A DNA stretch of 64,000 bases from Streptomyces sp. NBC_01571. GTDB lineage: Bacteria > Actinomycetota > Actinomycetes > Streptomycetales > Streptomycetaceae. The notes beneath the pieces were generated by a model. That model did no database searches. It saw only the letters and a program-made list of their open reading frames with translations, and had not been told where the DNA came from. Shown here in pieces: positions 42,873 to 64,000 of this stretch. The stretch is from NCBI RefSeq assembly GCF_026339875.1, contig NZ_JAPEPZ010000001.1, forward strand, positions 1,736,001 through 1,800,000, read 5' to 3'. A program made the translations under genes and the position numbers. Positions within the stretch are counted from its first letter, which is position 1. Every line of letters starts with the position of its first letter.

Positions 42873-43451
42873 TCAGAACAGCTCCAGCGCCGCGGCTTCC
42901 ACGGCGGCCGGGTCGGTCACGTCCAGCGGCGCCCTGGCGTTGAGCGCCAGGGCGACCGTCAGGGCGGAGTGGTCGGTGAGCCGGTCCTCGTCGGTCCGCG
43001 GCTCGTGCACGTACCGGCAGTCGGCCAGGCACCCGGCGAGGGGGCCGGAGACGTGGGCGAGGGTGGCGGAGACGCCGTCGCCGGAGCCGTTGACCACCAG
43101 GACGGCGGCCTCGTCGAAGCCGCTGGGGTGGAAGGCGGAGGCGGCGTGCGCGAGGTGGTGCTCGACCAGGGTGACCTGCCGGGTCCGGTGGTGGCCGAAC
43201 AGGGCGGGCGCGAGGAGTTCGGCGATCAGCTCGGCGTCCGCGCAGATGTCGCTCGGCGTAGGCCAGGCCGGGTTGAAGGCGATGGCGATCTCGTCAACGT
43301 CGGCCAGGGTGATGCTGGCCTCGGACAGGCAGTAGGCCGCGGCCACCGCGCAGGAGCGGGAGTCCTTGTGGTGCTTGCGGCGGGAGAAGCGCTCCTCCTC
43401 GGCGAAGACGACCACCTTCCCGTCGATGACCAGGCAGGCGGAGGGGTGGAA
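42873..43451 (-). pseudogene. truncated NodU/CmcH-type carbamoyltransferase fused to a foreign tail
   Basis: From about 43451 to 43040 the minus strand encodes the N-terminal half of a carbamoyltransferase: FHPSACLVIDGKVVVFAEEERFSRRKHHKD, HHLAHAASAFHPSGFDEAAVLVVNG and GDGVSATL. The expected opening residues and start are absent. After about 43040 the frame passes without a stop into an unrelated tail of about 55 residues ending EAAALELF, 33 bp before the MazG-like start; that tail probably belonged to the gene formerly upstream of it. The C-terminal Sua5-like and carbamoyl-transfer parts are missing, so it should be inactive. Confidence 0.7.
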
Positions 43452-44169: not shown

Positions 44170-44236
44170 CTCTGCTCTGCACCCCAACCGGTCACGGCGC
44201 GACCAACCGCCCAACTCCGGAACTCGCCCAAGCCCT

Positions 44237-45985: not shown

Positions 45986-46085
45986 TGGGGAGAGACCGGG
46001 CAGTGCCCGCAGGAAGGGAAACCGAGATCCTCAGTCTTGCAACTTCGGAAGGCGAAGGCGGATGACGGCCGAAACGGGAAACTCG

Positions 46086-46931
46086 TCAACCGGCGCGCTC
46101 GGCGAGCAGGGTGTGCGGGTTACTGGATTCGTACCAGCCGAGGAATGGAGGACAGACGTCGTAGCCCAGCAGACGCTGCAACTCTTCGGGGTACTCGCGG
46201 ACCACGTCCATCGGCACCGCCAGATACTGATTCTCCTCCTGTCGCATGTTCCCGGCGATATACGACAGGGTCAGCCCGGTACGCGGCTCGGTGGACGCAT
46301 TACACCCGCCACCGTGATAGAGGCCACCGAACCAGATCATCGCGGATCCGGCCGGCATCTCGGCCGGCACCGCCTCGTCGCGCTGCGGTGCCCGCTCGTC
46401 GTCCCAGCGGTGACTTCCCGGGATCGTCATGGTCGCGCCGTTCTCCGCAGTGAAATCGGTCATCGCAACCATGACCTGGACCCGGGTGGTGGGCGCGGGG
46501 TAGGGCCGTAGGTGAGAGGTATCGTCGCGGTGCAGCCACTGCGCACCCTCGTCGGGCCAGATCTGGATCACCTGGGTTGCGCTGACCTGGATGTTGGGTG
46601 AGATGTTCACCTGCTGACCGCTGAACCACACCGGCACGGGCTGCTGAATGAGCCGGCGGGCGGCACCGAGGAACAACGGATGCAGCGCAACGGCGGCCAT
46701 GTGCCGACTACGGGCGAACAGCGAGGACATCCGTTTGGTCTTGTGGCCGGAGAAATCATTGTCGCCGTAGCCGAACTTCTCCAGCGCGGGACCCAGGTCG
46801 GCCCAGAGGGCCTGTCGGGTGTCGGGGTCCAGGAACTCCTCCACGACGACTGCACCATCCTGTTCGAGGAGATTGCAGACTCGGTCGAGATCGGCGTCGG
46901 AGCGGACCGTGACGAGGTTTTTGTCGGTCAT
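46086..46931 (-). CDS. phytanoyl-CoA dioxygenase (PhyH) family oxygenase
   Basis: A Fe(II)/2-oxoglutarate-dependent oxygenase, 281 residues, the last gene of a six-gene leftward operon. The iron-binding HxD is in WLHRDDTSHL, the distal histidine in GGLYHGGGCN and the 2-oxoglutarate arginine in PRTGLTLSY. PhyH-type oxygenases in clusters hydroxylate or cyclise late intermediates; in kirromycin-type pathways such non-P450 oxygenation is known among tailoring steps. ATG 46931 has GGAGG eight bases upstream. Confidence 0.9.
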   Translation of the reverse strand: MTDKNLVTVRSDADLDRVCNLLEQDGAVVVEEFLDPDTRQALWADLGPALEKFGYGDNDFSGHKTKRMSSLFARSRHMAAVALHPLFLGAARRLIQQPVPVWFSGQQVNISPNIQVSATQVIQIWPDEGAQWLHRDDTSHLRPYPAPTTRVQVMVAMTDFTAENGATMTIPGSHRWDDERAPQRDEAVPAEMPAGSAMIWFGGLYHGGGCNASTEPRTGLTLSYIAGNMRQEENQYLAVPMDVVREYPEELQRLLGYDVCPPFLGWYESSNPHTLLAERAG

Positions 46932-46959
46932 TTGTTTCCCCTCCATGAAGGCGTGCGGT

Positions 46960-47103
46960 TCAGGACGCGATGTCCTTGAGGCTCTGGGCGCGCTCGGTGC
47001 TCTCCCAGTTCAGGTCCGGCTGCTCCCGGCCGAAGTCCCCGTACGTCGCGGTCTGCTGGTAGATCGGGCGCAGCAGCTCTAGGTCGCGGTCGCGTACGGG
47101 CAC
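46960..47103 (-). CDS. 47-residue peptide resembling the C terminus of SAM synthetase (MetK)
   Basis: A short gene below usual prediction size. The translated product, [20 protein letters not shown] followed by [20 protein letters not shown], aligns with the last ~45 residues of methionine adenosyltransferase (RDLDLLRPIYxxTAxYGHFGREx...WExTDR). GTG 47103 is preceded by GAGGAG at good spacing. It sits in the operon between ccr (32 bp upstream) and the dioxygenase (28 bp downstream). All catalytic parts of MetK are missing. Either a decayed relic that kept a ribosome-binding site or a true mini-protein; the reading frame is intact. Confidence 0.6.
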
Positions 47104-47135
47104 GTGGTGTCTCCTCGTTCAGCGGGGATGGCCGG

Positions 47136-48500
47136 TCATACGAGTTCCCGGTCTCGCGGTGACTCCGTCTGCCGGAAGCGGTTGATCGCGTCGAGATGCT
47201 TGTCGCGCATCGCGGTGTTGCGGACGCCCAGCCCCTCGTGCGGTGCCAGGGCCAGCACGCCGACCTTGCCGATGTGCCGGTTGCGGTACACGTCGTCGAC
47301 TGCCTGACCGGCGTGTTCCAGGGCGTACGTTCGGGAGAGGGTGGGGTGGATCTTGCCCTTGGCGATGAGGCGGTTGGACTCCCACGCCTCCCGGTAGTTG
47401 GCGAAATGCGATCCGACGATCCGCTTGAGCGACATCCACAGGTAGCGGTTGTCGTACTCGTGGCGGTAGCCGGAAGTGGACGCACAGGTCACGATGGTGC
47501 CGCCCTTGCGGGTGACGTATACCGAGGCGCCGAAGGTGTCCCGGCCGGGATGTTCGAAGACGATGTCGGGATCCTCCCCGCCGGTGAGCTCCCGGATCCG
47601 GCGGCCGAACCGTTTCCATTCCGCCGGGTCCTGGGTGTATTCGTCCTTCCAGAACGTGTAGCCCTCGTCGGCGCGGTCGATAACCGCGTCGGCGCCCATC
47701 GCCCGGCAGATGGCGGCCTTGGCCGGGCTGGACACCACGCAGATCGGGTTCGCGCCGCCGGCCAGCGCGAACTGCGTCGCGAACGCCCCCACACCACCGG
47801 AAGCGCCCCAGACGAGCACGTTGTCGCCCTGCTTCAGCTGGGCGCCGTTGCGGGAGACCAGCTGCCGGTACGCGGTGGAGGCGACCAGACCGGGCGTGCT
47901 CGCCTCCTCCCAGGTCAGGTGCGCCGGCTTGGGCATCAGCTGGTTTGCCTTGACCAGCGCCAGCTGGGCCAGGCCGCCGAAGTTGGTCTCGTACCCCCAG
48001 ATGCGTTGGTCCGGGTCGAGCATCGTGTCGCTGTGCCCGTCGGGCGCCTCCAACTCGGCCGACAGACAGTGCGCGACGACCTCATCGCCGGGCTTCCACG
48101 CGAACACGCCGGGCCCGGTACGCAGCACGACTCCGGCAAGGTCGGAGCCGATGACGTGGTAGGGCAGGTCGTGCCGCCGGGCCAGGGGTGAGCGGCGGCC
48201 GTACCGGGCCAGGAACGTGAAGGTCGGCAACGGTTCGAAGAGCGAGGACCACACGGTGTTGTAGTTGATCGAGCTGGCCATCACGGCCACCAGCGCCTCC
48301 CCGGGCCCGACTTGGGGAACGGCGACCTCGTCGAGGTGCACCGACCGGCGCGGATCGCGGTCCTCCGCCGCGACTCCGTCGAACATCTCGACCTCGTCCG
48401 CGTGCAGGGTCACCGCGCGATAGCTCTCCGGAACCGGCAGTGCGGCGAAGTCCTCCGGCCGGGTGTCCGGGTCGAGAACGGCGCTGATGATGTCTTGCAT
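47136..48500 (-). CDS. ccr: crotonyl-CoA carboxylase/reductase
   Basis: Reductively carboxylates crotonyl-CoA (or another enoyl-CoA) with NADPH and CO2 to ethylmalonyl-CoA or a longer alkylmalonyl-CoA extender. The 454-residue medium-chain reductase has the family openings PESYRAVTLHADEVEMFDGV and SSINYNTVWSSLFEPLPTF, cofactor motif VLVWGASGGVGAFATQFA, and IVFEHPGRDTFGASVYVTRKGG. It is complete, with GGAGGAG before ATG 48500. The product likely feeds the stand-alone AT encoded at 54459. It corresponds in role to kirN of kirromycin clusters. Confidence 0.95.
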   Translation of the reverse strand: MQDIISAVLDPDTRPEDFAALPVPESYRAVTLHADEVEMFDGVAAEDRDPRRSVHLDEVAVPQVGPGEALVAVMASSINYNTVWSSLFEPLPTFTFLARYGRRSPLARRHDLPYHVIGSDLAGVVLRTGPGVFAWKPGDEVVAHCLSAELEAPDGHSDTMLDPDQRIWGYETNFGGLAQLALVKANQLMPKPAHLTWEEASTPGLVASTAYRQLVSRNGAQLKQGDNVLVWGASGGVGAFATQFALAGGANPICVVSSPAKAAICRAMGADAVIDRADEGYTFWKDEYTQDPAEWKRFGRRIRELTGGEDPDIVFEHPGRDTFGASVYVTRKGGTIVTCASTSGYRHEYDNRYLWMSLKRIVGSHFANYREAWESNRLIAKGKIHPTLSRTYALEHAGQAVDDVYRNRHIGKVGVLALAPHEGLGVRNTAMRDKHLDAINRFRQTESPRDRELV

Positions 48501-48559
48501 CTGTGCTCCTCCGTGTACGCGACTGCGGAAGCAGGGGGACCGGCGGGCCGCCGCCCGGG

Positions 48560-48955
48560 TCAGTGCACGAGCCGTCCCATCAGGCGCTTGAGCTCGGCGG
48601 CCGGATCGGTGGTGAGTCCGCCGTGCACGGGACTGGTCTGGATCACGGTGCTGCGGGGTGCGGTGAGCCAGCCGAAGCGCGACCCGCGCGTGCCGAATCC
48701 GGCCGGACCGCCCTCGGGCCCACCCGCGCACACCGCGCGGATGGTGTCCAGGGCCGCGGTGACCACGTCGATGTCGACGTCGGGGTCGAGCGCGCGGAGC
48801 CGGTCGGCGTCGATGTGGACCGCGGCGCCGAGGAAGTCCGCGCCGGGGCAGTAGAGCAGCGCACCGACGTTGATCTGTTCGCTGCGGTCGACTCGCGGGA
48901 CGGCGCGCAGCAGGGCGTAGTCGAAGCTGAGAACGGACGGGGTGGCGGTGCTCAT
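48560..48955 (-). CDS. DUF3037 domain protein
   Basis: A 131-residue protein of the DUF3037 family (FDYALLRAVPRVDRSEQINVGALLYCPGADFLGAAV). Function unknown. DUF3037 genes commonly follow a HipA-like kinase gene, as here, with an ATGA overlap (48952-48955) implying coupled translation and a joint complex. Its presence between a P450 and ccr inside a biosynthetic operon is unusual. Confidence 0.88.
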   Translation of the reverse strand: MSTATPSVLSFDYALLRAVPRVDRSEQINVGALLYCPGADFLGAAVHIDADRLRALDPDVDIDVVTAALDTIRAVCAGGPEGGPAGFGTRGSRFGWLTAPRSTVIQTSPVHGGLTTDPAAELKRLMGRLVH

Positions 48956-49734
48956 GCGTCCTCCTCCGGCCACCACGCGCGGGTTCCGGCGCATCGGGTG
49001 AGCAGGTATTCCACGTAGCGCTGCCGTAGGTCAGCCGGATTCGCATCCTGCGGAACGGAGTTCATGCCCAGCAGGAAGCTGTCGGGGACCAGGGCGGTGA
49101 TCTCGGTCAGCGCCTCGGCGGTCACCGTCTCGGCGAGTTCGGCGTCCAGTTTGGCGAGCACGGCCGGGTCGAGAGAGGCGACCAGGTCGGCGAGCACGTG
49201 CTGGGACAGGTCGTACCGGCGCTCGGCCCAGGCGGCGACGGCCGGCCAGGAGTGCTGGAACAGCAGTGCGGCACCGTGGTCGATGGCCCAGAGCTGGCGG
49301 TGCCAGATGATCAGGTTGGGGTTGGACCAGGTGCGGTCGACGTTGGCGGTCAGCGCGTCCAGCCAGTAGATCCTGGCGGCCTCCTCGGCGGGCGGCTCCC
49401 ATCCGACTCCGTCGTAACCGACCGACCCGGGCAGGAAGTCCATGCCCAGGTTCTCGCCGGCGCTGGCCCGCAGCAGCTCCTGGATCTCCTGGTCGGGGTC
49501 GCGGCGTGCCATCTCCGGGTCGATGTCGACGGTGACGAGCTCGGGGACGCGGATGCCCAGTCGCCGGCCGAGTTCGCCAACGACGATCTCCGCGACCAGG
49601 GCCGCGGTGCCCTGGCCCGCGCCGCGGAACTTCACGACGTAGACGCCGTCGTTGTCGGCTTCCACCAGGCCGGGCAGCGATCCGCCCTCACGTAGAGGGG
49701 TCAGGTACTGCGTTCCTAACACTGTTTGCAACAA
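48952..49734 (-). CDS. HipA-like kinase
   Basis: A 260-residue protein of the compact HipA-like kinase family. VYVVKFRGAGQGTAALVAEIVVGELGRRLG holds the ATP-binding lysine, DALTANVDRTWSNPNLIIW the catalytic loop with Asp and Asn, and LWAIDHGAALLFQH the metal-binding Asp. The activity should be phosphorylation of an unknown target. TTG 49734 or 49731 are candidate starts, behind AGGATG; no ATG lies in frame. It is coupled to the DUF3037 gene and follows a P450 by 40 bp, in a secondary-metabolite operon. Confidence 0.85.
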   Translation of the reverse strand: MLQTVLGTQYLTPLREGGSLPGLVEADNDGVYVVKFRGAGQGTAALVAEIVVGELGRRLGIRVPELVTVDIDPEMARRDPDQEIQELLRASAGENLGMDFLPGSVGYDGVGWEPPAEEAARIYWLDALTANVDRTWSNPNLIIWHRQLWAIDHGAALLFQHSWPAVAAWAERRYDLSQHVLADLVASLDPAVLAKLDAELAETVTAEALTEITALVPDSFLLGMNSVPQDANPADLRQRYVEYLLTRCAGTRAWWPEEDA

Positions 49735-49774
49735 AACTCATCCTGCTGTTCGTTGTCGGGCATGGAAACGGTGG

Positions 49775-51004: not shown

Positions 51005-51092
51005 TCACTAGCTTCGCCACGCTGATCCGGGTGTTGACGGGGGCCGCCGACGAGCCATGCGACACACCCCGGGTTGAACCATGCAGTATTGA

Positions 51093-51126
51093 GATACAGG
51101 ACTGTATCAGAATGCGGTACTGTATC
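51093..51126. promoter_or_regulatory. paired TetR operators in the P450/TetR divergent promoter
   Basis: A perfect 16-bp palindrome GATACAGGACTGTATC (51093-51108) is followed 18 bp centre to centre by AATGCGGTACTGTATC (51111-51126), which keeps the right half. The pair lies within an AT-rich patch between the P450 start (51004) and the TetR reading frame, so the regulator should control both the tailoring operon and its own operon with the MFS exporter. Confidence 0.7.
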
Positions 51127-51150
51127 TGAGTTCTCGGAAGGAGGCCGATC

Positions 51151-51819
51151 ATCAGCAAACGACTCACCCGCCAGGAGAGCCGGGAAATCACGCGCCAGGA
51201 GCTGCTGCAGGCGGCGGCCGACCTGTTCGCCGAATGCGGCGTCAACGGCACCTCGGTCGAACAGATCGTGGAACGCGCCGGGTACAGCCGGGGCGCCTTC
51301 TACGGCAACTTCGACGGCAAGCAGCAGCTGATCCTGGCCCTCCTGGAGCAGCGCACCGAGCGCGAACTGGCCGAGGTACAGGCACTCAGCGCCAACGCCG
51401 GCTCGTTCGAGGAGACGATCGAGCACCTGCGCAACTGGCACCGCGAGCGGGACAAGAACTTCGCGAGCTGGCTGGCCCTGCGCACCGAACTGTGGCTCTA
51501 CGGCATGCGCGATCCGGCCGTGCTGTCCGTGCTGGCCGACCGCGAGCGCCGTTCCCGCGAGGCGATGACTCAGGCCCTCACGCAGGGTTTCGCCGCCCGG
51601 TCGGTCACCCCGCCCGCGCCGGTGGAGCTGCTCGCCCTGATCGTGCACGCCCTGGACGACGGGCTCTCCATCCAGCGCGTGCTGTCGGCCGGCGAGAGCC
51701 CGGCCGGGGGCGTCATGGACGTGGTGGACCTGCTGATGCGGTCGTGGACCGCGCTGGCCCGCGCCGGGACCACCGAACCCACCGGCCCGCCCGCCCCGGA
51801 GAGCGGCACCACCCCCTGA
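51151..51819 (+). CDS. TetR/AcrR family regulator with apparent AUC start
   Basis: The frame encodes a full TetR protein: ISKRLTRQESREITRQELLQ, AAADLFAECGVNGTSVEQIV and RAGYSRGAFYGNFDGKQQLI (helix-turn-helix about residues 12-58), then a C-terminal ligand domain. An in-frame TGA lies at 51127-51129, and no ATG, GTG or TTG occurs before 51268, which falls inside the helix-turn-helix. AAGGAGG (51138-51144) is placed six bases before ATC at 51151, the best available start. Either initiation is non-canonical or ATG has mutated. The MFS exporter follows after 57 bp. Confidence 0.75.
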   Translation: MSKRLTRQESREITRQELLQAAADLFAECGVNGTSVEQIVERAGYSRGAFYGNFDGKQQLILALLEQRTERELAEVQALSANAGSFEETIEHLRNWHRERDKNFASWLALRTELWLYGMRDPAVLSVLADRERRSREAMTQALTQGFAARSVTPPAPVELLALIVHALDDGLSIQRVLSAGESPAGGVMDVVDLLMRSWTALARAGTTEPTGPPAPESGTTP

Positions 51820-51876
51820 GCCGTCGGCCGGTCCCTTCTCCCGGCCACGCCATACCCAAGAACTGGAGTACTCCCC

Positions 51877-53541
51877 ATGATCGAGGAAGCGAAGTCGACG
51901 ACGGCGGAAGCGGCTCTCGGACCGCCCGTCGCCGCCGACGGTCCGGACTCCAAGCGCTGGCTGGCGCTGATCGTCCTGCTTGCCGCGACTTTCATGGACC
52001 TGCTCGACGTCAACATCGTCACCGTGGCGATCCCGAGCATCCAGGAGGACCTCGGCGCCTCCTCGGCCGCCGTCCAGGCGCTGAACGTCGGTTACACCCT
52101 GTCCTTGGCGGTCACCCTGATCACCGGCGGCCGTCTCGGCGACATCTTCGGCCGCAAGCGAGCCTTCCTGTTCGGCGTCGCCGGCTTCGTCGTGGCCTCG
52201 GCCCTGTGCGCCTTCGCACCCAGCGCCGAAGTCCTGGTGATCTCCCGGGTCCTGCAGGGCATCGCCGCCGCGATCATGGTGCCGCAGGTCCTGGCGATCA
52301 TCTACGTAACCTTCCCGGCGGAGGAGATCGGCAGGGTCGTCAGCCTGTACGCCAGCATGATCGGCTTGGCCATCGTCGCCGGACCGCTGCTGGGCGGCGT
52401 GCTGATCTCCTGGGATCCGGGCGACCTGGGCTGGCGGACCGTCTTCGTGGTCAACCTGCCGTTCGGCGCGGCCGCCCTGATCGCCGGCGCGATGTGGATG
52501 CGCGAGTCGAAGTCGCCCCGCGCCACCCGGCTGGACCTGGTCGGCATGGTGCTGGCGACCACCGGCCTGCTGTTGCTGCTGCTGCCCCTGCTGCGCGGCC
52601 GCGAACTCGGCTGGCCGGCCTGGAGCATCACCTCGCTCATGGCCTCCGTGCCGGTCCTCGTGGCGTTCGTGTACTACGAGCGCTACAAGACCGCCAAGGA
52701 CGGATCGCCCCTGGTCGTCCTCTCCCTCTTCAAGATCCGGACCTTCGGTGCCGGGGTCGGCGCACAGCTGCTGTTCAGCTGCATCCCGGCCGGCTTCTTC
52801 CTCAGCTGGACGCTCTACCTGCAGGGCGGTCTCGGCTGGTCGGCGCTGCACACCGGTCTCACCGCGATCCCGTTCTCGCTGGGCGTCCCGATCGCCGGCA
52901 GCCTCGCCGTCCGCAAGCTGTTCCCCCTCTACGGACGCAACTGCCTGTTCGCCGGGGCGCTGCTGATGATGGCCGGGCTCCTGCTGTACGCGTGGATCGC
53001 CGACCAGGCCGGTGAATCGATCACCTCCTGGCACGCCGTCGTCCCGATGCTGCTGCTCGGCTCCGGCATGGGCATGCTGCTGGCTCCGCTGACCGGCCTG
53101 ACCCTGAACGATGTCGAGCCGCGGGAGGCGGGCGCGGCGTCCGGCCTGATCAACGCGGCCGGTCAGCTCGGCGCCGCCCTCGGTGTGGCCATCATCGGTG
53201 CGATCTTCTTCTCCGGCCTCGCCACCAACGCGGGGACGCAGGCCGACCGGGTGCTGCCGAACGTCCCGGCCGTCGCCTCGCAGCAGGCCGAGATCCGCGC
53301 CTGCGCCGTCGACGCCCACGACCAGGCCGACCTCACCGCCGTGCCCGACACCTGCCGCGCCCTCGGCACCGATGACCCCGCCCAGCAGGAGGCGATCGGA
53401 AACGCCCTGGCCGACATCAACTCCGGGACGTTCACGGCCTCCTTCAGCGAAGCCCTCTACTGGGCGTCCGCAGGCCTGGCCGCGGTGATCTGCCTGCTGT
53501 TCCTGCTGCCGCGGCAACCGCGGCGGCTGGGAGTGTCCTGA
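51877..53541 (+). CDS. DHA2-type MFS exporter (EmrB/QacA)
   Basis: A 554-residue drug:proton antiporter with about 14 helices. Motif A is GGRLGDIFGRKRAF (near residue 85), and LDVNIVTVAIPSIQ is the family's helix 1 signature. An extended loop with two cysteines precedes the last helix. Between a TetR regulator and biosynthetic genes, it is the likely product exporter and a self-protection factor, inferred from context. Confidence 0.93.
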   Translation: MIEEAKSTTAEAALGPPVAADGPDSKRWLALIVLLAATFMDLLDVNIVTVAIPSIQEDLGASSAAVQALNVGYTLSLAVTLITGGRLGDIFGRKRAFLFGVAGFVVASALCAFAPSAEVLVISRVLQGIAAAIMVPQVLAIIYVTFPAEEIGRVVSLYASMIGLAIVAGPLLGGVLISWDPGDLGWRTVFVVNLPFGAAALIAGAMWMRESKSPRATRLDLVGMVLATTGLLLLLLPLLRGRELGWPAWSITSLMASVPVLVAFVYYERYKTAKDGSPLVVLSLFKIRTFGAGVGAQLLFSCIPAGFFLSWTLYLQGGLGWSALHTGLTAIPFSLGVPIAGSLAVRKLFPLYGRNCLFAGALLMMAGLLLYAWIADQAGESITSWHAVVPMLLLGSGMGMLLAPLTGLTLNDVEPREAGAASGLINAAGQLGAALGVAIIGAIFFSGLATNAGTQADRVLPNVPAVASQQAEIRACAVDAHDQADLTAVPDTCRALGTDDPAQQEAIGNALADINSGTFTASFSEALYWASAGLAAVICLLFLLPRQPRRLGVS

Positions 53542-53580
53542 CCGTCCCCGTCCCCCCGACACCTGAGGAGCACCACCACC

Positions 53581-53913
53581 ATGCCCCGCAAGAATTACCA
53601 GATCATCGTCTACGGCAAATTCGCGCCGCTCGACGACGACCAGCGCGCCAAGCTGCTGGCCGTGGCCGACAAGCACGATCTGTTCCAGTCGAAGTTCACC
53701 GAGGAGGGCACCGTCACCTATGAGCGGACCCTGCTCACCTTCACCTTCCGCTGTGTCGTGAAGGCCGACGCCGAGGACAAGATCGACGAGGTCGTCGCCG
53801 GGACCGAGGAACTGGCTACGGCCGCCGTCCGAGACCTCGGCGCCGATGTGCGCGATCTGCGGTCCGTCTGCACCGACCTGGAAACCATCAAGATCAAGCG
53901 GCGGGGACGATGA
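53581..53913 (+). CDS. DUF6204 family protein
   Basis: A 110-residue soluble protein beginning MPRKNYQIIVYGKFAPLDDD, followed by TEEGTVTYERTLLTFTFRCVV. It matches the DUF6204 family, found in many Streptomyces clusters without a known role. Its stop overlaps the next start by four bases, so it acts with the DUF2087 protein or is merely co-regulated. Confidence 0.82.
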   Translation: MPRKNYQIIVYGKFAPLDDDQRAKLLAVADKHDLFQSKFTEEGTVTYERTLLTFTFRCVVKADAEDKIDEVVAGTEELATAAVRDLGADVRDLRSVCTDLETIKIKRRGR

Positions 53914-54467
53914 CGCCCGAGACATTCACCGTTCTCCTTTCCGACTCCGCTCTGCGGCGGGTTTTCTCGGCCATAGCCCTGGGCTCGTCGACGTCCGCGG
54001 AGATTCTCGCCGCGACCGGGCTCGCCGCCCCGGAGGCCGCCCCGGCGATCGGCCGGCTGCTGCGCGAAGGCCTGGTCGTCGCCCAGGGCCGGGGCCGGCT
54101 GGCCGTCGACGAGGCCGCCCTGGACGCCGCGGCCGAGATCGCCGGACGCCGCCAGCAGGAGCAGGCGGAGGCCGAACAGCCCGATCCCGGGCTGCGCGGC
54201 TACGTCCGTGGCACTGTGCTGGTCCGACTGCCGGAGGACGACGACGAGACCCGGCGGGCCGTGCTAGACCACGTCGCGGCGACGACCTTCGAGGCCGACC
54301 GGGAGTACGACGAGCGCACCGTGACCGATCTGCTGCGGCCGTGGTGCGAGGGCACCACCGTGGACCCGGTCTCGCTGCGGCGGTTCCTGGTCGACGACGG
54401 CTTCCTGCACCGCGCGTCGGGCGCCTACCGGCTCGTTTCCCTCGTCGGGCCCCGGCAGTCATCCTGA
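53910..54467 (+). CDS. DUF2087 protein with N-terminal helix-turn-helix
   Basis: A 185-residue protein. The first 65 residues look like a winged helix (SDSALRRVFSAIALGSSTSAEILAATGL). The C-terminal half holds the DUF2087 signature FEADREYDERTVTDLLRPWCEGTTVDPVSLRRFLVDDGFLHRASGAYR. It may be a transcription or RNA-associated factor. Last gene of the rightward operon; its 3' end overlaps the convergent AT gene by nine bases. Confidence 0.85.
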   Translation: MTPETFTVLLSDSALRRVFSAIALGSSTSAEILAATGLAAPEAAPAIGRLLREGLVVAQGRGRLAVDEAALDAAAEIAGRRQQEQAEAEQPDPGLRGYVRGTVLVRLPEDDDETRRAVLDHVAATTFEADREYDERTVTDLLRPWCEGTTVDPVSLRRFLVDDGFLHRASGAYRLVSLVGPRQSS

Positions 54468-55796: not shown

Positions 55797-55805
55797 TTCT
55801 CCCCC

Positions 55806-56762
55806 TCACACTCGGACGGCGACCTGGTGCCGATAGCTCTCCATCGGCAGGCCGCTCATCCACGGCACGAGGCCCAGCCGGCTGAGCACCTTGATCGAGG
55901 CGGGCGGCTGGTAGTCGGCGAACATGCCACCGAACATCAGGATCTGACTGTGCGTGGCGATCGTGCGCACCAGCGGGTTCATCCGCTGCCGGTCCAGCGT
56001 GCGGCGGAAGCGGCTGCCCGGGGCCATCCGGCGGCGCACCGCGGCGCGGACCTCACCGGAGACGTCGTGATCGCTGATCCACTTCAGCTGGGGCATCTCC
56101 TCGGTGATCCCCCGCATCGTCCGCAGCCGCTGACGGGTGAACACATCGATGTGGGACAGCGTCCCGCCCGGCCGCAGCACCCGCGCGGCCTCGTGCAGAA
56201 AGCGGCCCAGATCGGGATACGTGTGCGAGCTCTCGATGTTGATCAGCACATCGACCGAGGAGTCTTCGAACGGCAGCTTCTCGGCATCGCCGTGCACGAA
56301 GCGCAGGCTCTCGCCCCGGGCCAGAGTGGCCTCGGCCCGGGCGATCGCCTTCGGCGACAGGTCCAGGCCGGTCATCCGGGCGCCGGGAACGAGCCGGGAC
56401 AGGAAGTTGAGCCCCTCGCCCGTCCCGCAGCCCACCTCGAGGACCGCCCGGCCGGCGCACCCGTCCAAACCGTCGGGAAGATCGCGCAGGGCCAGGTAGT
56501 AGAGCTGCTCGCTGAAACCGTCGGTGCCGAACTCGGTGAACCCGGGCAGCCGGGCCTCGATCTCGGCTGCCAGATCAGGGTCGTACATCCCCCAGTTCCA
56601 CAGCTCGCCGCGACCGGACAGGGTGGCCGCCATGTCGTAGATGGAGGAACTGGCCGACTTCATCCCGGCGGCCTTCACCCCCGAGCTGGGTGCTCTGGAC
56701 TCGTCGAGGTTGATGTCCGCCAGACCGGCGGTGAAGGCGGTCATCACATCGGGTTGGCTCAT
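55806..56762 (-). CDS. class I SAM-dependent methyltransferase
   Basis: A 318-residue methyltransferase. Motif I is VLEVGCGTGEGLNFL (near residue 110), then MTGLDLSPKAIARAEA and FVHGDAEKLPFEDSSVDVL. It resembles the phthiotriol/demethylmenaquinone-type family with an N-terminal helical cap. An O-methylation of the product is plausible; kirromycin clusters carry a single methyltransferase for this. Located nine bases before the AT gene in the same operon. Confidence 0.9.
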   Translation of the reverse strand: MSQPDVMTAFTAGLADINLDESRAPSSGVKAAGMKSASSSIYDMAATLSGRGELWNWGMYDPDLAAEIEARLPGFTEFGTDGFSEQLYYLALRDLPDGLDGCAGRAVLEVGCGTGEGLNFLSRLVPGARMTGLDLSPKAIARAEATLARGESLRFVHGDAEKLPFEDSSVDVLINIESSHTYPDLGRFLHEAARVLRPGGTLSHIDVFTRQRLRTMRGITEEMPQLKWISDHDVSGEVRAAVRRRMAPGSRFRRTLDRQRMNPLVRTIATHSQILMFGGMFADYQPPASIKVLSRLGLVPWMSGLPMESYRHQVAVRV

Positions 56763-56793
56763 TGTGGTCTCCGAGTTCGCCGGATCAGTGCGG

Positions 56794-57213
56794 TCACGCG
56801 TTGACGGTGTCGCCGCGCATCAGGTCGTCGGCGCCGTCGGGTGCCTCGGCCGGGTCGGAACCGACGTTCTGCGGTCGGTTGCCGCCGTCGACGAAGACCA
56901 CGCTCGGCCGGTAGGAGCGAGCCTGTTCCTCGGTCATCGCCGCGTACGAGATGATGATCACCAGGTCGCCGGGGCTGATCAGCCGGGCCGCCGCGCCGTT
57001 GATGCCGACCACGCCGCTGCCGGCCGGCCCCTCGATGACGTAGGTGCTGAGCCGGGCGCCGTTGTCGATGTCGACGACGTCGATCTTCTCTCCGGGCAGC
57101 AGGTTCGCGGCGGCCATCAGCGTCGAGTCGAGCGTGAGCGAGCCGACGTAGTGCAGTTCCGCCTGCGTCACCGTGGCACGGTGAATCTTCGACTTGAGCA
57201 TCTCTCGGTACAC
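56794..57213 (-). CDS. panD: aspartate 1-decarboxylase
   Basis: Pyruvoyl-dependent enzyme producing beta-alanine from aspartate, 139 residues. The self-cleavage site Gly-Ser is in [13 protein letters not shown], with [16 protein letters not shown] at the N terminus and [21 protein letters not shown]. It lacks panBC neighbours and lies inside the biosynthetic operon, so its beta-alanine probably serves the assembly line, as KirD does for kirromycin. GTG 57213 is preferred over GTG 57231 because GGAG lies eight bases upstream and the protein then matches family length; the C-terminal 20 residues are extra. Confidence 0.95.
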
Positions 57214-57227
57214 CGGGTGGTCTCCGT

Positions 57228-58430
57228 TCACCATGTCACCGGCAGCTCGTGGACGCCGTAGATGATCGATTCGGGGTTCGTGCGGACCTGGTCCGCGGGT
57301 GTCGCCAGACGCAGCTCGGGCAGCCGCCGGGCCAGCGCCTCGAACGCGATCCGCAGTTCCAGTCGCGCCAGTTGCTGCCCGACGCACTGGTGGATGCCGT
57401 AACCGAACGAGAGATGCGCCACCGGCAGCCGGGTGATGTCGAGGCGGTCCGGGTCGTCGCAGAGCGCCGGGTCCCGGTTCGCCGCGGCCAGCGACAGGGA
57501 CACGGCGTCACCTGCGGTGAGGTGGTGCCCGTCGAAATCCATGTCGGTGCCTGCCGCACGGATCGAGCCGGCGTGCATGACCGTCACGTAACGCAGCAGT
57601 TCCTCCACCGCGCCCGCGCCCAGGCCCCCCGGGTCCGCGGCCAGTGCCGCGTACTGGTCCGGATGTGCCAGCAGGGCGAAGGTGCCCAGCGCGATCATGT
57701 TCTTGCTGGTGTCGTAGCCGCCCACGAGCAGCACGCTGCCGATGGTCGCCAGTTCCTCGTCGGTAAGATCGCCGTCGGCGACCAGCGTGCCGAGCAGATC
57801 GTCGGTGGGCTCTTCGCGTTTGGAACGGATCAGCTCCATCAGCTGCCCACCGACGTTCTGCCAGCCGGCGATCGCCTCCTCCGCGCTGGAGTGAACGGTC
57901 AGCAGCGCCTTGATGCCCTTGACGAACACGTCCCGCCGGTCGGCGGGGACACCGAGCAACTCGCAGATCACCAGCCCGGCGACCGGTTCGGCGAACGCGG
58001 CGACCAGATCGGTGGGGCCGCCTTCCTCGATCATCTTGCCGAGATATAGCTCGACGTGCTCGGCCAGCCTCGGCTCCATGGTCCGGGTGCGGCGGGCCGA
58101 GAACCAGGCGGTCAGCCGGCGCCGGTAGTGGGTGTGCTCCGGCGGGTCCATCGCCGTGAACATCCCCGGCGCCAAGTCGGTCCGGTCCCCGGCCATCGGC
58201 AGCGGAATGGGGGTGCGCAGCAGGTCGCCGCGCGAGCTGATGCCCCGGGCGGCGAGGAGCCGGCGGACCTGGTCGTAGCCGGTGATCAGCCAGCCGAGGT
58301 GGCCGTCCGGGAAGACCATGCGGGCCACCGGCTGCTCCGCGCGCAGCTCGGCGAGCTCGGGTGCGGGGTCGAACGGGCAGGTGCCACGGGTCATGGGCAG
58401 GCCGTCGACGGGACGAACAGTCTCGGACAC
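57228..58430 (-). CDS. cytochrome P450
   Basis: A 400-residue P450. The heme loop is [17 protein letters not shown], the I-helix VGGYDTSKN and the ExxR motif ELLRY. GTG 58430 is preceded by AAGGAG at six-base spacing; a longer frame runs into the AT-AT-ER gene. It is 14 bp downstream of that gene and 14 bp upstream of panD. A second tailoring hydroxylase of the cluster. Confidence 0.93.
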
Positions 58431-58444
58431 AACGCTCTCCTTTG

Positions 58445-61400
58445 CTAGACGCCGGCGGACCCGACGATCTCGGCGGCTTCGGTGATGAGTCGGTCGGCCA
58501 GCTCGTCGGCGTGCCGGTCGCGCCAGGCCTCGTACGGGGTGCCGCGCAGCCAGTGGTTGCAGGCGCCCAGCGCCGGCCCGCAGGCCACCTGGTAGTCCGC
58601 GACGCGCTCCGGGGTGCCCTCGATCGCCCACCGCTGGGCTTGGGCGCAGTACCAACGAAAGACCAGGGCCATCCGGCGCTTGGGGTCGGCCGACTCGCCG
58701 GCGGGGACGACCCGCGACGCCAGTTCCTCGAAACCTGCGCCGAAGTAGTCGCGTTCCACCCGGGACCGGATCCGGCCGGGCACGGCGTCCCAGGAGTCGT
58801 AGGTACGCCACAGGTCGTAGAGCTTGCCGGCGCGTACGTGGAAGAGGACGCCCTTCCGCAGCACCCGGGCCCGGCCGCCGAGCTCGAACAGCGCGCCGTA
58901 CGGGGCGTACGCGGTGTCGTGCACGTCGAGGTTCGGCAGCAGGTCCTTGGCAGATTCGCTGAGCCCGCTCTCGGCGGTGCAGAGGTTGATCGATCCGGTA
59001 AGGATGAAGTCGGCACCCAGTACGAAAGCGGCTGCGGCCGACTCCGGAGAGCCGATGCCTCCACCACCCCCGACGCGTACGCCGGAGGCGACCCCGCCGA
59101 GCTGCGCCCGCAGCCGGCGCACCGAAGGCAGCAGCGCGGGCAGTGCGCCCTGGTCGGTGTAGTCGGCTCCGTCGCCGACCGCGCAGATGTCGTCGGCCAG
59201 GGCGATCCGCTCGCCGACCGCGGCCTCCTCGGCGGTGAGCAGTCCGTCGTCGACCAGCCGTGCCACGAAGGAGCGCGGCGGCGGCGCGAAGAACAGGCGG
59301 GCGGTGTCCAGGCGGGTCACCTTGGCCAGCAGCTTGCGTGGGGCGTGCACGGTGCCGTCCGCCAGGATGCGGGCCCCGGTCAGACGATGCCTCACCAGCG
59401 CGGGGGTCACCTCGACGTACGTGGCCGCCTCGACGAGACGAACATTCTCACGGACCAGCAGGTCGACCAGGTCGACCTCAGCGCGCGGGTTGAACGGGTC
59501 ATGGGTGAGGTTGACCCCGAACGGCGCGGCAGCCCCGGCTGCCGCCCGGATGCCGCGGATCGCGCCGACGACGTCCGCGAGCGGGAGCCCGGCCGCACCG
59601 AAGCAGCCAAGCAGGCCGGAGCGGGCGAGCCGGGCGACCAACTCGACGGAGCTGACGCCGTGGTGCATGCCGCCAGCGACGTAGGCGTGCCGAACCCCGT
59701 GGTCGCGCCGGAACGCCGCCGACCCAAGCTCCGCGCACCGCGGCGCCGCAGCACTGACCGGCTCGGTCAGCGCCACGATCCGTTCCGGCTCGGGTCGGAG
59801 CGGTGTGGCCTCCTCCCGGATCCGGGCGATCAGCTTGGTCAGCACCTGCCCCGGGCCCAGTTCACGGACCCGGAAGTCACCTCGGCCCATCAGCAGCCGG
59901 ATGCTGTCGGTCCACCGCACCGGGGAGACGATCTGGCGGCGCAGCGTGGCGGCCACGGCGTCCGGCGCGTACGGCCGGGCGTCGACGTTGCTGATCACGG
60001 GGATCTTCGGGGCGGCGAACGTCGTGGCATCCAGCAGGCGCCCGAACTCCTCCGCGGCCTGCGCCATGTAGCGGCTGTGGAAGGGGGCGCTGACGTTGAG
60101 CGGGGCACAGCGGGCGCCCTTGTCCTTGAACACCGCAAGCGCACGGTTGACCGCGTCGGCCGGGCCCGCGATGACTGTCTGGGTCGGCGCGTTGTAGTTG
60201 GCGATGTCCAGTCCGGACAGCTCGGCGTCGCGCAGCACCTCCCGGACCAGGTCGGCGTCGACGGCCGAGACCGCCGCCATCGTGCCGCCGGTGACCTGTC
60301 CCATCAGCCGGCCGCGTTCGGCGACCAGGCGCAGCCCGGTCTCGAAGTCGTACACGCCCGCAGCGAACAGGGCGGCGAACTCACCGAGGCTGTGCCCGAG
60401 CAGGTAGTCGGGCAGGCGGCCGCCCTCTTGCAGGGCGGCCAGCCAGGTGAGGGTGTCGACCACGTACAGGGCGGGCTGGGTGTACCGGGTGTCGCGCAGG
60501 TTGCGGCCGGGGTCCTCCAGGCACAGCTCACGGATCGAGTACCCCAGGACGGCGTCGGCCCGTTCGACCAGCTCGGGGAACCGGTCGAACAGGTCTCGGC
60601 CCATTCCCTTGGCCTGAGCGCCCTGGCCGGGGAAGACATAGACGTCGAAGCCGTCGCCCGGGGTGGCGGGGTCGGCCACGGGCGTCTCAGCGGTCATGGT
60701 GGTCACCTCGGTTCGTCGAGCCGGTGCGGCGATGAGCGAGCGGGTGTCGAGCACCGCCTGGTACAGCACCTCGTCCCGGGCGTACGGGGAGAGCAGCGGC
60801 AACACCCGGGACCGGCTGCCCTCGGGAAGCCGCGCCCGCACCAGGTTGGCCATCGACCCGGACGGGCCCAGGTCCAGGAAGAGCAGATCGTCGCGGGCCA
60901 GCAGCGGTTCGAGGGCTCGTGTCAGGTCGAACGGCTCGCGCAGGACCTGCCAGAAGTGGTCCGAGTCGGGGCGGTGTATCTCGGCACCGGTCGTTCCGGA
61001 GATCAGCGGGATCGTGGCGGGTCGCGGGGTGAGACCGCCCACGAGCTTCGTGAACGCGTCGCGCACGCCGTCGATCAGCGGTGAGTGGAACGGGTACAGC
61101 ACCGGAAGCCGTTGGCAGAGCACACCTGAGGCGTTCAAGTGGCGCTCGATGTCGTCGAGCCGGTCGGCCGTGCCCGCGAGCACGAAGTTGTCCGGCCCGT
61201 TGATCGCAGCCAGATGTGCCCCGGCCAGCGCGGGATCGCGGTCGACGAGGGCGGCATCGGCGAGGACCGCCAGCATTCCGCCGCGCGGGCACTCCGCCTC
61301 GAAGAGCGCCACTTGGTCCAGCAGCGAGCGCAGGCATTCCTGGGGGTCGAAGATGCCGGCCACCGTGGCGGCGACGACCTCGCCCAGGCTGGCGCCGAGC

Positions 61401-61681
61401 ACCAGCTCCGGCTCGAAGCCGCGGGCGCGCAGCATGCGGGCCAGCGCGTACTCGACCATGAAGATGGCCGGCTGCGTGAGCGACAGGCGGGTCATCGCCG
61501 TCTCCGCGCCGCGGCCGTCGCCGTGGATCGCGGCGACGACCGAGTCGCCGTGGACATCGCGCACCACCGCGTCCAGAGAGTCCAGAGCATCGCGGAAGAC
61601 CGGGTCGGCACCGTAGAGCCACCGGCCCATGCCGTGGTACTGGGAGCCCTGGCCCGCGAAGAGGAAGACCGGTGTCAGCAT
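58445..61681 (-). CDS. trans-acting AT-AT-enoylreductase (PfaD) fusion
   Basis: A three-domain protein of 1078 residues. AT1 (about 1-300) has FLFAGQGSQYHGMG and LGASLGEVV, with Gln where malonyl-ATs have their substrate arginine (LLDQVALFEAE). AT2 (about 345-630) has FPGQGAQAKGMG, GHSLGEFAA, AERGRLMG and PFHSRYM, a malonyl-type enzyme. The PfaD-type flavin enoylreductase (about 670-1070) has YVAGGMHHGVSSVELV, FGVNLTHDPFNP and GVRVGGGGGIGSPESAAAAF. Such fusions are diagnostic of trans-AT PKS systems. ATG 61681 starts on the AT; GTG 61708, overlapping the NRPS stop, is the alternative. Confidence 0.93.
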   Translation of the reverse strand: MLTPVFLFAGQGSQYHGMGRWLYGADPVFRDALDSLDAVVRDVHGDSVVAAIHGDGRGAETAMTRLSLTQPAIFMVEYALARMLRARGFEPELVLGASLGEVVAATVAGIFDPQECLRSLLDQVALFEAECPRGGMLAVLADAALVDRDPALAGAHLAAINGPDNFVLAGTADRLDDIERHLNASGVLCQRLPVLYPFHSPLIDGVRDAFTKLVGGLTPRPATIPLISGTTGAEIHRPDSDHFWQVLREPFDLTRALEPLLARDDLLFLDLGPSGSMANLVRARLPEGSRSRVLPLLSPYARDEVLYQAVLDTRSLIAAPARRTEVTTMTAETPVADPATPGDGFDVYVFPGQGAQAKGMGRDLFDRFPELVERADAVLGYSIRELCLEDPGRNLRDTRYTQPALYVVDTLTWLAALQEGGRLPDYLLGHSLGEFAALFAAGVYDFETGLRLVAERGRLMGQVTGGTMAAVSAVDADLVREVLRDAELSGLDIANYNAPTQTVIAGPADAVNRALAVFKDKGARCAPLNVSAPFHSRYMAQAAEEFGRLLDATTFAAPKIPVISNVDARPYAPDAVAATLRRQIVSPVRWTDSIRLLMGRGDFRVRELGPGQVLTKLIARIREEATPLRPEPERIVALTEPVSAAAPRCAELGSAAFRRDHGVRHAYVAGGMHHGVSSVELVARLARSGLLGCFGAAGLPLADVVGAIRGIRAAAGAAAPFGVNLTHDPFNPRAEVDLVDLLVRENVRLVEAATYVEVTPALVRHRLTGARILADGTVHAPRKLLAKVTRLDTARLFFAPPPRSFVARLVDDGLLTAEEAAVGERIALADDICAVGDGADYTDQGALPALLPSVRRLRAQLGGVASGVRVGGGGGIGSPESAAAAFVLGADFILTGSINLCTAESGLSESAKDLLPNLDVHDTAYAPYGALFELGGRARVLRKGVLFHVRAGKLYDLWRTYDSWDAVPGRIRSRVERDYFGAGFEELASRVVPAGESADPKRRMALVFRWYCAQAQRWAIEGTPERVADYQVACGPALGACNHWLRGTPYEAWRDRHADELADRLITEAAEIVGSAGV

Positions 61682-61704
61682 GGTGAGGGGTCCTCTTCGG
61701 TCGC

Positions 61705-64000
61705 TCACGCGAGCCCGCGCAGGCGGCCGGCCAGCGCGGCGGGGGTCGGGTTCTCGAACACGTCGGTGAGAGCCAGCCGGACGCCGGTCTCGTCCTTGAT
61801 GCGCTGCGCGAGCGAAGCGGCGAGCAGCGAGTGGCCGCCGCTGGTGAAGAAGTGGGCGTCGGCGTCCAGGTCCGGCCGACCGAGCAACTCGGCGAAGAGC
61901 TTGGTCAGGGTGGCGGTGAACGCGTCGCCGCCGGCCGCACCCGCGGTGTCGCCGCCGGCCGCGGCCGGCTGTCGCGCGGCGAGGTCCGCCAGTGCCAGGT
62001 AGTCGACCTTATCGCTTCCGGTGCGCGGGAACGCCTCCACCGCGAGGAACCGGTGCGGCACCACCGAGCGTGGCAGCCGCTGCCGGGCGTGCTCCCAGAG
62101 CTCGTCCACCGCCTCGGGCCGGTGCGGCACCTGTACGAAGGCGGCCAGGCTGCCGTCCGCGGCGGGGTCGCCGACCACCAGCACGGCGGCCGCCTCGACG
62201 TCCGGATGATCGGACAGCACCGCCTCGATCTCGCCCAGCTCGATCCGGTTGCCGCGCAGCTTCACCTGCCGGTCAATGCGGCCTAACAGGTCGATGCGGC
62301 CGTCCGGCAGCCAGCGCGCCACATCTCCCGAGCGATAGAAGCGTCCCCACGGGGAGTTCACCCCGAAGCGCTCGGCGGTGAGGCCGGGCCGTCCGTGGTA
62401 GCCGGAGGCGACACCGACTCCGGCGACGCACAGCTCGCCGCGCAGGCCGATCGGCAACGGTTCCCCGTTCGGGCCGGCGATGAAGACCCGGGTGTTGGCG
62501 ATCGGCGTCCCCACGTCCACTCGGTCGCCGAGATCCGTCGGTACCCGGCCCGCGGTCGCCCAGATCGTGCTCTCCGTCGGGCCGTAGACGTTCCACAGTT
62601 CGGCGCCCGCCGCGGTCAGGGTCGCGGCCAGCCCACCGGGCAGGGGCTCACCACCGCTGAGCAGCGTGCGGCCAGCGACCAGATCGGTGATGCGGTCGGC
62701 GACCAGTCGCCAGGTGGTCGGTGTCGCCTGGAGGAATCCGATGTCGTGGGCGCGTATCTCCTCGGCCAGCAGGGCTCCGTCGGTGCGGGCCTCGTCGGGC
62801 AGCACGACCGTGTGGCCGCCGTGCAGCAGCGGCATCATCAGTTCCAGCGACGAGGTGTCGAAGCTGTATGTGCTGAGCCAGCCGGTGGGCCGCGCCGTCG
62901 TGGCGACGCCGAAGCGCACCGCGTAGTCGGTGATGTGGTTGACCAGGCTCCGGTGCGTGATCGGGATGCCCTTCGGCCGTCCCGTCGATCCGGACGTGTA
63001 GATCACGTACGCGAGGGCGTCCGGCCCGGCCACGCCCGCCATGCCGGCGTCTACGGGGACGGTGGGGGCGGCGTCGACGTCAGGGGCCGGGATCGTGCGC
63101 CGGTCGCCGGGCGCGGTGAGCCCGTCGCCGGTCACCACCACCCGGGCGCCCGCGTCGTCGAGCTGGTAGGCGATCCGCTCCGCCGGGTGGTGCGGGTCCA
63201 GCGGCAGGTACGACGCTCCGGCAAGCCACGTGCCGAACACCGCGGCGGCCAGCGCCGCACCGCGCGGCACGAGCAGCGCGACGACGTTGCCAGGGCGGAC
63301 ACCGGCCGCCGTCAGTCGCTCGACGGTGTGCACGGCGGCGCACCACAGGCGGCCGTAGCTCACCAGCTGATCGCCGTCCCGCATCGCGATGGCGTCCGGC
63401 TCGGCCGCGGCGCGCTCGGCGAATCCGGCGAGCACCGACGTCAGGTCGATCGGCTGGTGGGTCGTGTTGGCGGCTTCGATGATCGCGTGGTCCTCGGGCG
63501 ACCAGATCGACAGCGAGCCGACCGGCGTGTCCAGGGCGGCGCCGACGGCGACCAGCAGCGCGTCATAGCGACGGACCATCAGCTCGACGTCTGCCCTGTC
63601 CAGGACTCCGGTGTAGAACGCCGCGCGCACGGTTGCGCTGTCACGGTCGGAGGTCACGAAGAATTCCAGGTCGAACTGGCTGAACCCGTTCTCGACCACG
63701 ACCAGTTCCGCTGCGGCGCCGGCCACCGTGAAGGTGCGCTGGTCGGCGGTGAACGGCACGTAGTTGAACACATGGCGGAACAACACGTTGCGCCAGCCGG
63801 AACCGTCGCGCTCGATCACGTCGAGCAGTTCGTCGGCGGGCATGTCCGCGTGGGCCATCGCCTCCATGAACACCCGGCGCGCCCGGCCGACTAGCTCCCG
63901 GAAACCGGCCGTGCGCTCGGTCAGCAGGCGCAGCGTGACCAGGTTGCTGTGGTAGCCGACCGCCCCGGCCGCCTCCCGGCCGCGCGAGTTGACCGGCGAT
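61705..64000 (-). CDS. NRPS, C-terminal end of a C-A-PCP module (5' end outside window)
   Basis: The visible 764 residues include the end of a condensation domain (VGYHSNLVTLRL, FRHVFNYVPF), a full adenylation domain (YVIYTSGSTGRPKG, NVYGPTEST, GELCVAGVGVASGYHG, YRSGDVARWLPDGRID, QVKLRGNRIELGEIE, TGSDKVDYLAL) and a carrier domain (FFTSGGHSLLAASL) at the C terminus. The specificity positions read by eye are D-T-L-Q-L-G-V-I-W-K, close to the published glycine code DILQLGLIWK. Glycine incorporation is therefore predicted. No thioesterase follows, so the chain passes to another protein. The gene overlaps or abuts the AT-AT-ER start. Confidence 0.93.
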   Translation of the reverse strand, partial: SPVNSRGREAAGAVGYHSNLVTLRLLTERTAGFRELVGRARRVFMEAMAHADMPADELLDVIERDGSGWRNVLFRHVFNYVPFTADQRTFTVAGAAAELVVVENGFSQFDLEFFVTSDRDSATVRAAFYTGVLDRADVELMVRRYDALLVAVGAALDTPVGSLSIWSPEDHAIIEAANTTHQPIDLTSVLAGFAERAAAEPDAIAMRDGDQLVSYGRLWCAAVHTVERLTAAGVRPGNVVALLVPRGAALAAAVFGTWLAGASYLPLDPHHPAERIAYQLDDAGARVVVTGDGLTAPGDRRTIPAPDVDAAPTVPVDAGMAGVAGPDALAYVIYTSGSTGRPKGIPITHRSLVNHITDYAVRFGVATTARPTGWLSTYSFDTSSLELMMPLLHGGHTVVLPDEARTDGALLAEEIRAHDIGFLQATPTTWRLVADRITDLVAGRTLLSGGEPLPGGLAATLTAAGAELWNVYGPTESTIWATAGRVPTDLGDRVDVGTPIANTRVFIAGPNGEPLPIGLRGELCVAGVGVASGYHGRPGLTAERFGVNSPWGRFYRSGDVARWLPDGRIDLLGRIDRQVKLRGNRIELGEIEAVLSDHPDVEAAAVLVVGDPAADGSLAAFVQVPHRPEAVDELWEHARQRLPRSVVPHRFLAVEAFPRTGSDKVDYLALADLAARQPAAAGGDTAGAAGGDAFTATLTKLFAELLGRPDLDADAHFFTSGGHSLLAASLAQRIKDETGVRLALTDVFENPTPAALAGRLRGLA

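Follow-up and report, generated by a model that had tools for sequence, protein, structure and literature searches.

The stretch of DNA analysed here (the window, 64,000 nucleotides; G000:C1:1736001-1800000 in the 11.5-Mb genome of Streptomyces sp. NBC_01571) runs at its right end into a biosynthetic gene cluster resembling that of kirromycin. The 90 kb right of the window were joined on, with "region" coordinates carrying on the window numbering, and genes were called in the present analysis on the joined sequence. In all likelihood a complete kirromycin-type cluster occupies region 46-125 kb, the window holding its left, tailoring end, and a guess made at the edge of a cluster thus gives way to a complete gene set whose probable product can be named. 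Kirromycin-type clusters are already known from other soil bacteria, and the new points are an apparent toxin-antitoxin pair of the anti-phage kind inside the cluster and the movement of the cluster between species. Overall this is an ordinary but complete kirromycin-type cluster, with one real lead, the toxin-antitoxin-like candidate phage-defence pair.

Related (kir-like) loci were sought by a scan of named genomes, which gave 24 loci, and by a cyclase search of 392 same-genus genomes, 40 of which matched. The four close loci compared below are those of Streptomyces sp. NBRC 110035, S. anulatus NRRL B-2873, S. viridosporus NRRL 2414 and genome G228, and the five distant loci examined are those of Micromonospora rubida, S. 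netropsis, Saccharopolyspora sp. NFXS83 and genomes G241 and G060.

Assembly line, tailoring genes and predicted product

Right of the window lie 14 ketosynthase (KS) domains, all on one strand. The six polyketide synthase (PKS) proteins (Table 1) were divided into 18 pieces, of which 17 were scanned with Pfam (the KS piece of AIII being the one left out), and acyltransferase (AT) domains were found only in the two pieces of AVI. The preliminary description of this DNA had seen at the window's end the edge of an elfamycin (kirromycin-type) trans-AT PKS/nonribosomal peptide synthetase (NRPS) cluster, and the AT-less AI-AV, a KirHI-type cyclase and both trans-ATs bear this out. The trans-AT KS modules and the Dieckmann-type pyridone-forming gene that it expected beyond position 64,000 are both there, and the continuation with only cis-AT modules that would have spoken against it was not seen. 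The window genes that it listed (AT-AT-PfaD, the AT with a VASH motif, crotonyl-CoA carboxylase/reductase (CCR), panD, cytochromes P450, PhyH, methyltransferase, major facilitator superfamily (MFS) and TetR genes) were all recovered at or near the places it gave them. A Pfam scan of the KirHI counterpart gave no family; genes at the same position in kir-like clusters are 75-99% identical to it (99% in G228), the NBRC 110035 locus stopping inside KirB, so that KirHI is not seen there.

The NRPS modules had been read differently. The in-window module, with the condensation-adenylation-peptidyl carrier protein (C-A-PCP) order, has the motif-anchored A-domain pocket code D-T-L-Q-L-G-V-I-W, and that of the C-A-PCP module of AIII is D-I-L-Q-L-G-M-I-W. 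Both codes resemble the glycine consensus, and on this comparison the AIII module would be the internal glycine-type module. By place and make-up the in-window module, previously called glycine-like, is the probable counterpart of KirB, with beta-alanine as its substrate by orthology, and the glycine-type module lies outside the window in AIII. A beta-alanine module had been expected right of position 64,000; it exists, but sits at the window edge. In S. collinus, KirB loads beta-alanine (PMC5818483).

The domain layout of the cluster fits the kirromycin plan of PMC5818483 and PMC9361827. According to the kir literature, AI-AV, fed by KirCI and KirCII, would together with AVI assemble a chain containing one glycine, to which KirB would append beta-alanine made by PanD; KirHI would then free the chain as a pyridone, KirM, KirHVI, KirOI and KirOII would carry out the tailoring, and the MFS pump would export the product. 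The substrate of the KirCII-type AT would, by orthology, be ethylmalonyl.

Table 1. Features of the window and of the joined sequence (positions above 64,000 are region coordinates; kir-type names denote putative counterparts of S. collinus genes)
Feature	Position	Strand	Evidence and remarks
EF-Tu3-like, second and divergent EF-Tu	33070..34239	-	His at E. coli position 160; core neighbour, not a cluster gene; syntenic in relatives
Left insertion sequence (IS) copy (DDE_Tnp_ISAZ013)	44232..45988	+	1757 bp; 5-bp direct repeats CCTGG, read from the ends
KirHVI-type PhyH (2-oxoglutarate) oxygenase	46086..46931	-	PF05721, 112.6 bits; 846 nt, the kirHVI length; 95-99% identity in 4/4 close relatives
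47-codon open reading frame (ORF)	46960..47103	-	Remnant of the 3' end of metK (S-adenosylmethionine (SAM) synthetase)
KirN-type CCR	47136..48500	-	TIGR01751, 596.7 bits (cut-off 378.55)
KirHV, DUF3037, probable antitoxin partner	48560..48955	-	131 aa, 396 nt; PF11236, 147.2 bits
KirHIV, HipA-like kinase (HipA_2), probable toxin	48952..49734	-	260 aa, 783 nt; TTG start; PF20613, 52.8 bits
KirOI-type cytochrome P450	49775..51004	-	PF00067; 98-99% identity in 4/4 close relatives
TetR regulator (KirR type)	51268..51819	+	PF13977, 35.7 bits; TetR_N match
MFS exporter (KirT type)	51877..53541	+	PF07690, 163.7 bits
KirHIII-position protein, DUF6204	53581..53913	+	PF19707, 109.6 bits; kir name from place only
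KirHII-position protein, DUF2087	53910..54467	+	PF09860, 61.2 bits; kir name from place only
KirCII-type discrete AT	54459..55796	-	PF00698, 281.9 bits; GHSMG motif, VASH at residue 282
KirM-type O-methyltransferase	55806..56762	-	957 nt, the kirM length
KirD-type aspartate 1-decarboxylase, PanD (beta-alanine supply)	56794..57234	-	PF02261, 165.3 bits
KirOII-type cytochrome P450	57228..58394	-	PF00067; 96-98% identity in 4/4 close relatives
KirCI-type AT-AT-PfaD	58445..61681	-	TIGR02814, 485.7 bits (cut-off 449.25); fabD profile matches two stretches
KirB-type NRPS, C-A-PCP	61705..64000	-	Continues to region 64782 (782 bases past the window)
KirHI counterpart, Dieckmann-type cyclase	64779-65603		274 residues; assigned by place and kinship
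PKS gene AVI	65835-74462		cis-AT
PKS gene AV	74459-81280		AT-less
PKS gene AIV	81280-100242		AT-less; C-methyltransferase domain
PKS gene AIII	100242-104834		AT-less; starts with C-A-PCP
PKS gene AII	104831-117922		AT-less; C-methyltransferase domain
PKS gene AI	117949-123846		AT-less
KirP-like phosphopantetheinyl transferase (PPTase), beside AI	~124213-124908	Opposite to PKS genes	PF17837, PF01648
Right IS copy	129859-131615	Inverted	1757 bp; 3 mismatches to left copy; own 5-bp direct repeats CCAGG, read from the ends

Kirromycin, an inhibitor of EF-Tu, is the most likely product. The kirromycin cluster of S. collinus Tu 365 has the same gene set, a single cis-AT PKS (AVI) and a KirP-like gene beside AI, and its kirM, kirHVI, kirHIV and kirHV genes (957, 846, 783 and 396 nt; PMC5818483) have counterparts of identical length here. 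The closest published relative of KirHIV is a Frankia protein, at 76% (PMC5818483), and the counterpart described here is 75% identical to a Frankia protein. One MFS and one TetR gene were found in the cluster span, as against two of each given for S. collinus in PMC9361827 and two MFS genes in PMC6804068.

Several points weigh against this assignment, which is a prediction from the gene set. The kirN counterpart is 3 nt off the published length, and KirOI and KirOII measure 1230 and 1167 nt, as against 1200 and 1218 nt in the published genes, a mismatch that may come from start-codon choice. The gene-by-gene comparison called for by the preliminary description came out well for content and lengths, which fit the published kir/aur set; orthology to the S. 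collinus genes is a strong inference drawn from lengths, order, family and literature.

Two calls within the window needed correction. The TetR_N match of the TetR gene spans profile positions 24-47 only, and its start codon may be mis-set for that reason. A tRNA-Leu(aag) call at 54554-54643 is false; it lies within the AT gene, and at that place no tRNA was called in three of four relatives and a tRNA-Phe in the fourth.

The preliminary description had also listed a 47-residue peptide as not known from described pathways, and this can be dismissed as a peptide product, the 47-codon ORF reading as a decayed SAM-synthetase tail. Its product matches the C-terminus of SAM synthetase in the PDB (best E 6e-10), and PF02773 reaches 22.8 bits on it, under the cut-off of 25. 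The ORF is absent from two of the four close relatives, and the kirN-kirHVI spacer that holds it has decayed differently in G228 and S. viridosporus (locus L010) and is almost lost in loci L008 and L009. These remnants suggest that the cluster may at one time have carried its own metK. In S. viridosporus the spacer (L010:18650-19215) holds a longer decayed stretch, with SAM synthetase pieces and an apparent part of another gene.

The HipA-like kinase and DUF3037 pair

Between KirOI and KirN lies a pair of genes for a HipA-like kinase and a DUF3037 protein, which had been described as not known from characterised pathways; judged by length, place and family rather than by direct alignment, it appears to be the KirHIV/KirHV pair of the kir literature. 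The pair is not required for biosynthesis and most likely represents a toxin-antitoxin system of the HipAD type, with the kinase as toxin and the DUF3037 protein as antitoxin, which would serve for addiction or for defence against phages. KirHIV matches the PADLOC profile PDC-M66A (E 5.1e-18) and KirHV matches PDC-M66B (E 2.7e-8, profile positions 3-66 of 281), and their genes overlap at 48952-48955. Residues K34, D132, N137 and D151 of KirHIV (numbered from codon 2), which correspond to the kinase catalytic motif, are invariant in 30 of 30 aligned sequences, picked among the best 120 of 8000 matches.

The order of a HipA-like kinase gene followed by an overlapping DUF3037 gene, together with the PADLOC matches, likens the pair to HipAD, DS-6 and PDC-M66. 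In published work the HipA kinase is required for defence against phage Bas51 and deletion of the DUF3037 gene is toxic (PMC12548924), and the same architecture is described for DS-6/HipAD, where a predicted catalytic residue of the kinase is needed (PMC13092281). The pair differs from HipAD/DS-6 in that KirHV is short, without the DUF1829 part of DS-6B, and in its placement within an antibiotic cluster.

A number of observations tell against a toxin-antitoxin function. Pfam found DUF3037 only in KirHV, and neither DUF1829 nor a C-terminal DNA-binding part; its match to PDC-M66B ends at position 66 of 281. An AlphaFold model of KirHIV (mean predicted local distance difference test score, pLDDT, 76) gave weak kinase matches in a Foldseek comparison with the PDB (best E 6.8e-3), among them Fam20 and H. 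pylori CtkA, and these were not used as proof. In S. collinus, deletion of kirHIV or of kirHV left kirromycin output unchanged (PMC5818483, 2018). Survival of mutants that lack the antitoxin is evidence against a strong toxin, barring its neutralisation by a chromosomal paralogue; the present genome has two KirHIV paralogues, 50 and 54% identical. The read-out of those deletions was production, and phage defence or cluster retention is not mentioned in the part of PMC5818483 consulted. The toxin-antitoxin reading gives kirHIV and kirHV a testable role. Among the literature matches listed, no paper joined a kir gene name with HipAD or DS-6, and none joined HipA, "biosynthetic gene cluster" and kirromycin.

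The position between KirOI and KirN is kept in all five kir-type loci, the present one included. In M. rubida the pair adjoins KirOI, ~23 kb from KirCII, with 83% identity for the kinase, 82% for its partner and 88% for KirOI. In a tree of 35 rows (19 located copies and 16 chosen among 120 listed proteins), the kinases of the kir and M. rubida clusters form one clade with proteins P0001-P0003 (support 99/94), apart from the chromosomal copies. Tentatively, and with rather more doubt than confidence, clusters of the kirromycin branch of the elfamycins may carry a dedicated HipAD-type module that travels with them between Streptomyces and Micromonospora as an addiction module or phage guard.

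Two KirHIV relatives at 72%, P0021 (Streptomyces sp. WAC05292) and P0036 (S. globosus), form a separate clade. The former strain is known as the factumycin producer. One S. globosus strain has been reported with a kirromycin cluster (PMC13248635).

Relatives of the cluster and EF-Tu genes of its hosts

The in-window cluster genes stand in the same order in all four close relatives and are 91-100% identical, the tailoring genes of the five distant loci being ~49-88% identical. Over region 46086-65603, DNA identity (length-weighted blastn pieces) is 97.4% to G228, 96.6% to S. anulatus, 96.2% to S. viridosporus and 95.8% to NBRC 110035, the last figure covering 17,195 of the 19,518 bases. For the core flank at 31755-42035, identity to G228 is 79% across 5.9 kb, 87% in EF-Tu3 and 78-80% in the rest, and the main pieces in the three other close relatives are 68-86% identical. 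Cluster DNA at ~96-97% against a core flank at 68-87% in the same genomes indicates that the cluster moves horizontally, and the comparison is clear evidence for transfer of the kirromycin pathway between Streptomyces species.

As far as BacA (42038), genomes G007, G009 and G011 share synteny with the left flank, and in them the core continues for 13 kb beyond BacA and reaches another HipA/DUF3037 pair. The same continuation occurs in the present genome at C1:2294272-2301441, ~0.5 Mb away, whereas the two core blocks stand within 13 kb of each other in those three relatives. The cluster thus occupies the left margin of a large stretch of additional DNA (window position 42041 to C1:2294272).

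Changes at EF-Tu positions 124, 160 and 375 confer kirromycin resistance. The present genome has two EF-Tu genes, the main one with Tyr160 and Ala375 and a divergent one at 33070..34239, EF-Tu3-like by kinship. Position 160 is His, Gln or Asn in 33 other EF-Tu3-type sequences, picked for likeness to this one, and the EF-Tu3 of S. ramocissimus and S. coelicolor is likewise a divergent second EF-Tu with a residue other than Tyr at position 160. EF-Tu3 was considered as a resistance gene of the cluster and rejected as part of it, its surroundings being conserved core and the gene not lying beside kir in G228. It is 12 kb from the cluster here, apparently because the cluster landed there, and 8.9 Mb away in G228; in the S. 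anulatus and S. viridosporus drafts it is on other contigs, and its linkage to kir there is unlikely. By hand count, EF-Tu3-type genes (best E < 1e-200) occur in 236 of 295 same-genus genomes, the present one included, at a cut that misses more divergent EF-Tu3 genes, those of G241 and G060 for example.

The hosts of kir-type clusters differ in their EF-Tu, some having an EF-Tu3 with His160 and others Thr375 in a different EF-Tu. Thr375 occurs in one EF-Tu each of G241, G060 and S. netropsis, the hosts of three distant elfamycin-type clusters (L081, L084, L086, L090, L092), as against Ala375 in all ten of the other same-genus genomes used as controls. G241 and G060 have, in addition, another and divergent EF-Tu with Ser124, His160 and Val375. 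Position 160 is Gln in M. rubida and Glu in Saccharopolyspora, residues read without controls from their own genera. NBRC 110035 (a draft) speaks against a simple account of resistance: although it has the cluster, a single EF-Tu was found there at E 1e-80, and this carries Tyr160 and Ala375. According to a review (PMC6804068), the factors expressed by S. collinus and S. ramocissimus are sensitive and the EF-Tu3 of S. coelicolor is resistant.

Alternative readings and flanking DNA

The overall gene set is also common to the aurodox cluster of S. goldiniensis, nearly all genes being shared by name and family (PMC9361827), and the product might on that ground be aurodox, which is N-methylated, or another methylated elfamycin. 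This is highly improbable. The aurodox cluster has the methyltransferase gene AurM* between B and CI and is reported without a PPTase (PMC9361827), whereas a KirP-like PPTase is present here and the gap between KirB and KirCI is 23 bp, with no methyltransferase gene, a gene that is also missing in the close relatives. In all four distant loci that cover this gap, by contrast, an O-methyltransferase of 333-334 residues (PF00891, 102-113 bits) stands in it (the S. netropsis locus, where no KirB was seen, does not cover it); methyltransferases elsewhere in the present genome were not searched for. Since the AurM* position holds no methyltransferase, kirromycin is predicted rather than aurodox. 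The HipA/DUF3037 pair, for its part, could be regarded as a self-resistance device acting on EF-Tu or on kirromycin, given its presence in all five kir-type clusters seen and in one elfamycin-type cluster of Micromonospora. We consider this very unlikely: the S. collinus mutants deleted for kirHIV or kirHV were viable and productive (PMC5818483), and no cluster-linked copy was found in G241, G060 or S. netropsis, where the only copy lies on another contig (55-56% identity) and EF-Tu has Thr375 instead, or in Saccharopolyspora, which has no KirHIV copy at E 1e-20. The KirHIV family is, moreover, very large outside elfamycin clusters, all 8000 of 8000 scored candidates having matched. A HipAD-type toxin-antitoxin role is preferred for the pair.

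With regard to mobility, the two inverted IS copies bracketing the cluster are 99.8% identical and are the only full ones of their kind in the genome, a search for a third copy having returned matches of 56% at full length and 41-61% in part. A composite transposon would account for this arrangement but is unlikely, as no target duplication shared by the outer sides of the two copies was seen; each has its own 5-bp repeat, as after two separate insertions. Nor did any of the four close relatives show such an IS next to KirHVI, the view beyond this gene extending over 0.7-1.8 kb in three of them and ~23 kb in G228. The bracketing is consequently no proof of a composite transposon.

Other features of the flanks were noted. 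Outside both IS copies, a direct repeat of 830 bp with 83.6% identity occurs at window 42268-43084 and region 152489-153294, ~110 kb apart. Between AI/PPTase and the right IS lie another transposase (region 125719-127110) and ORFs for a reverse transcriptase and a group II intron maturase (127687-129554). Right of the cluster, region 134642-143799 encodes three big adjoining proteins (1213, 743 and 1092 aa); PADLOC gave no match for the three and Pfam none for the first two, and the 743- and 1092-aa proteins have relatives that adjoin each other in genome G402, of another family.

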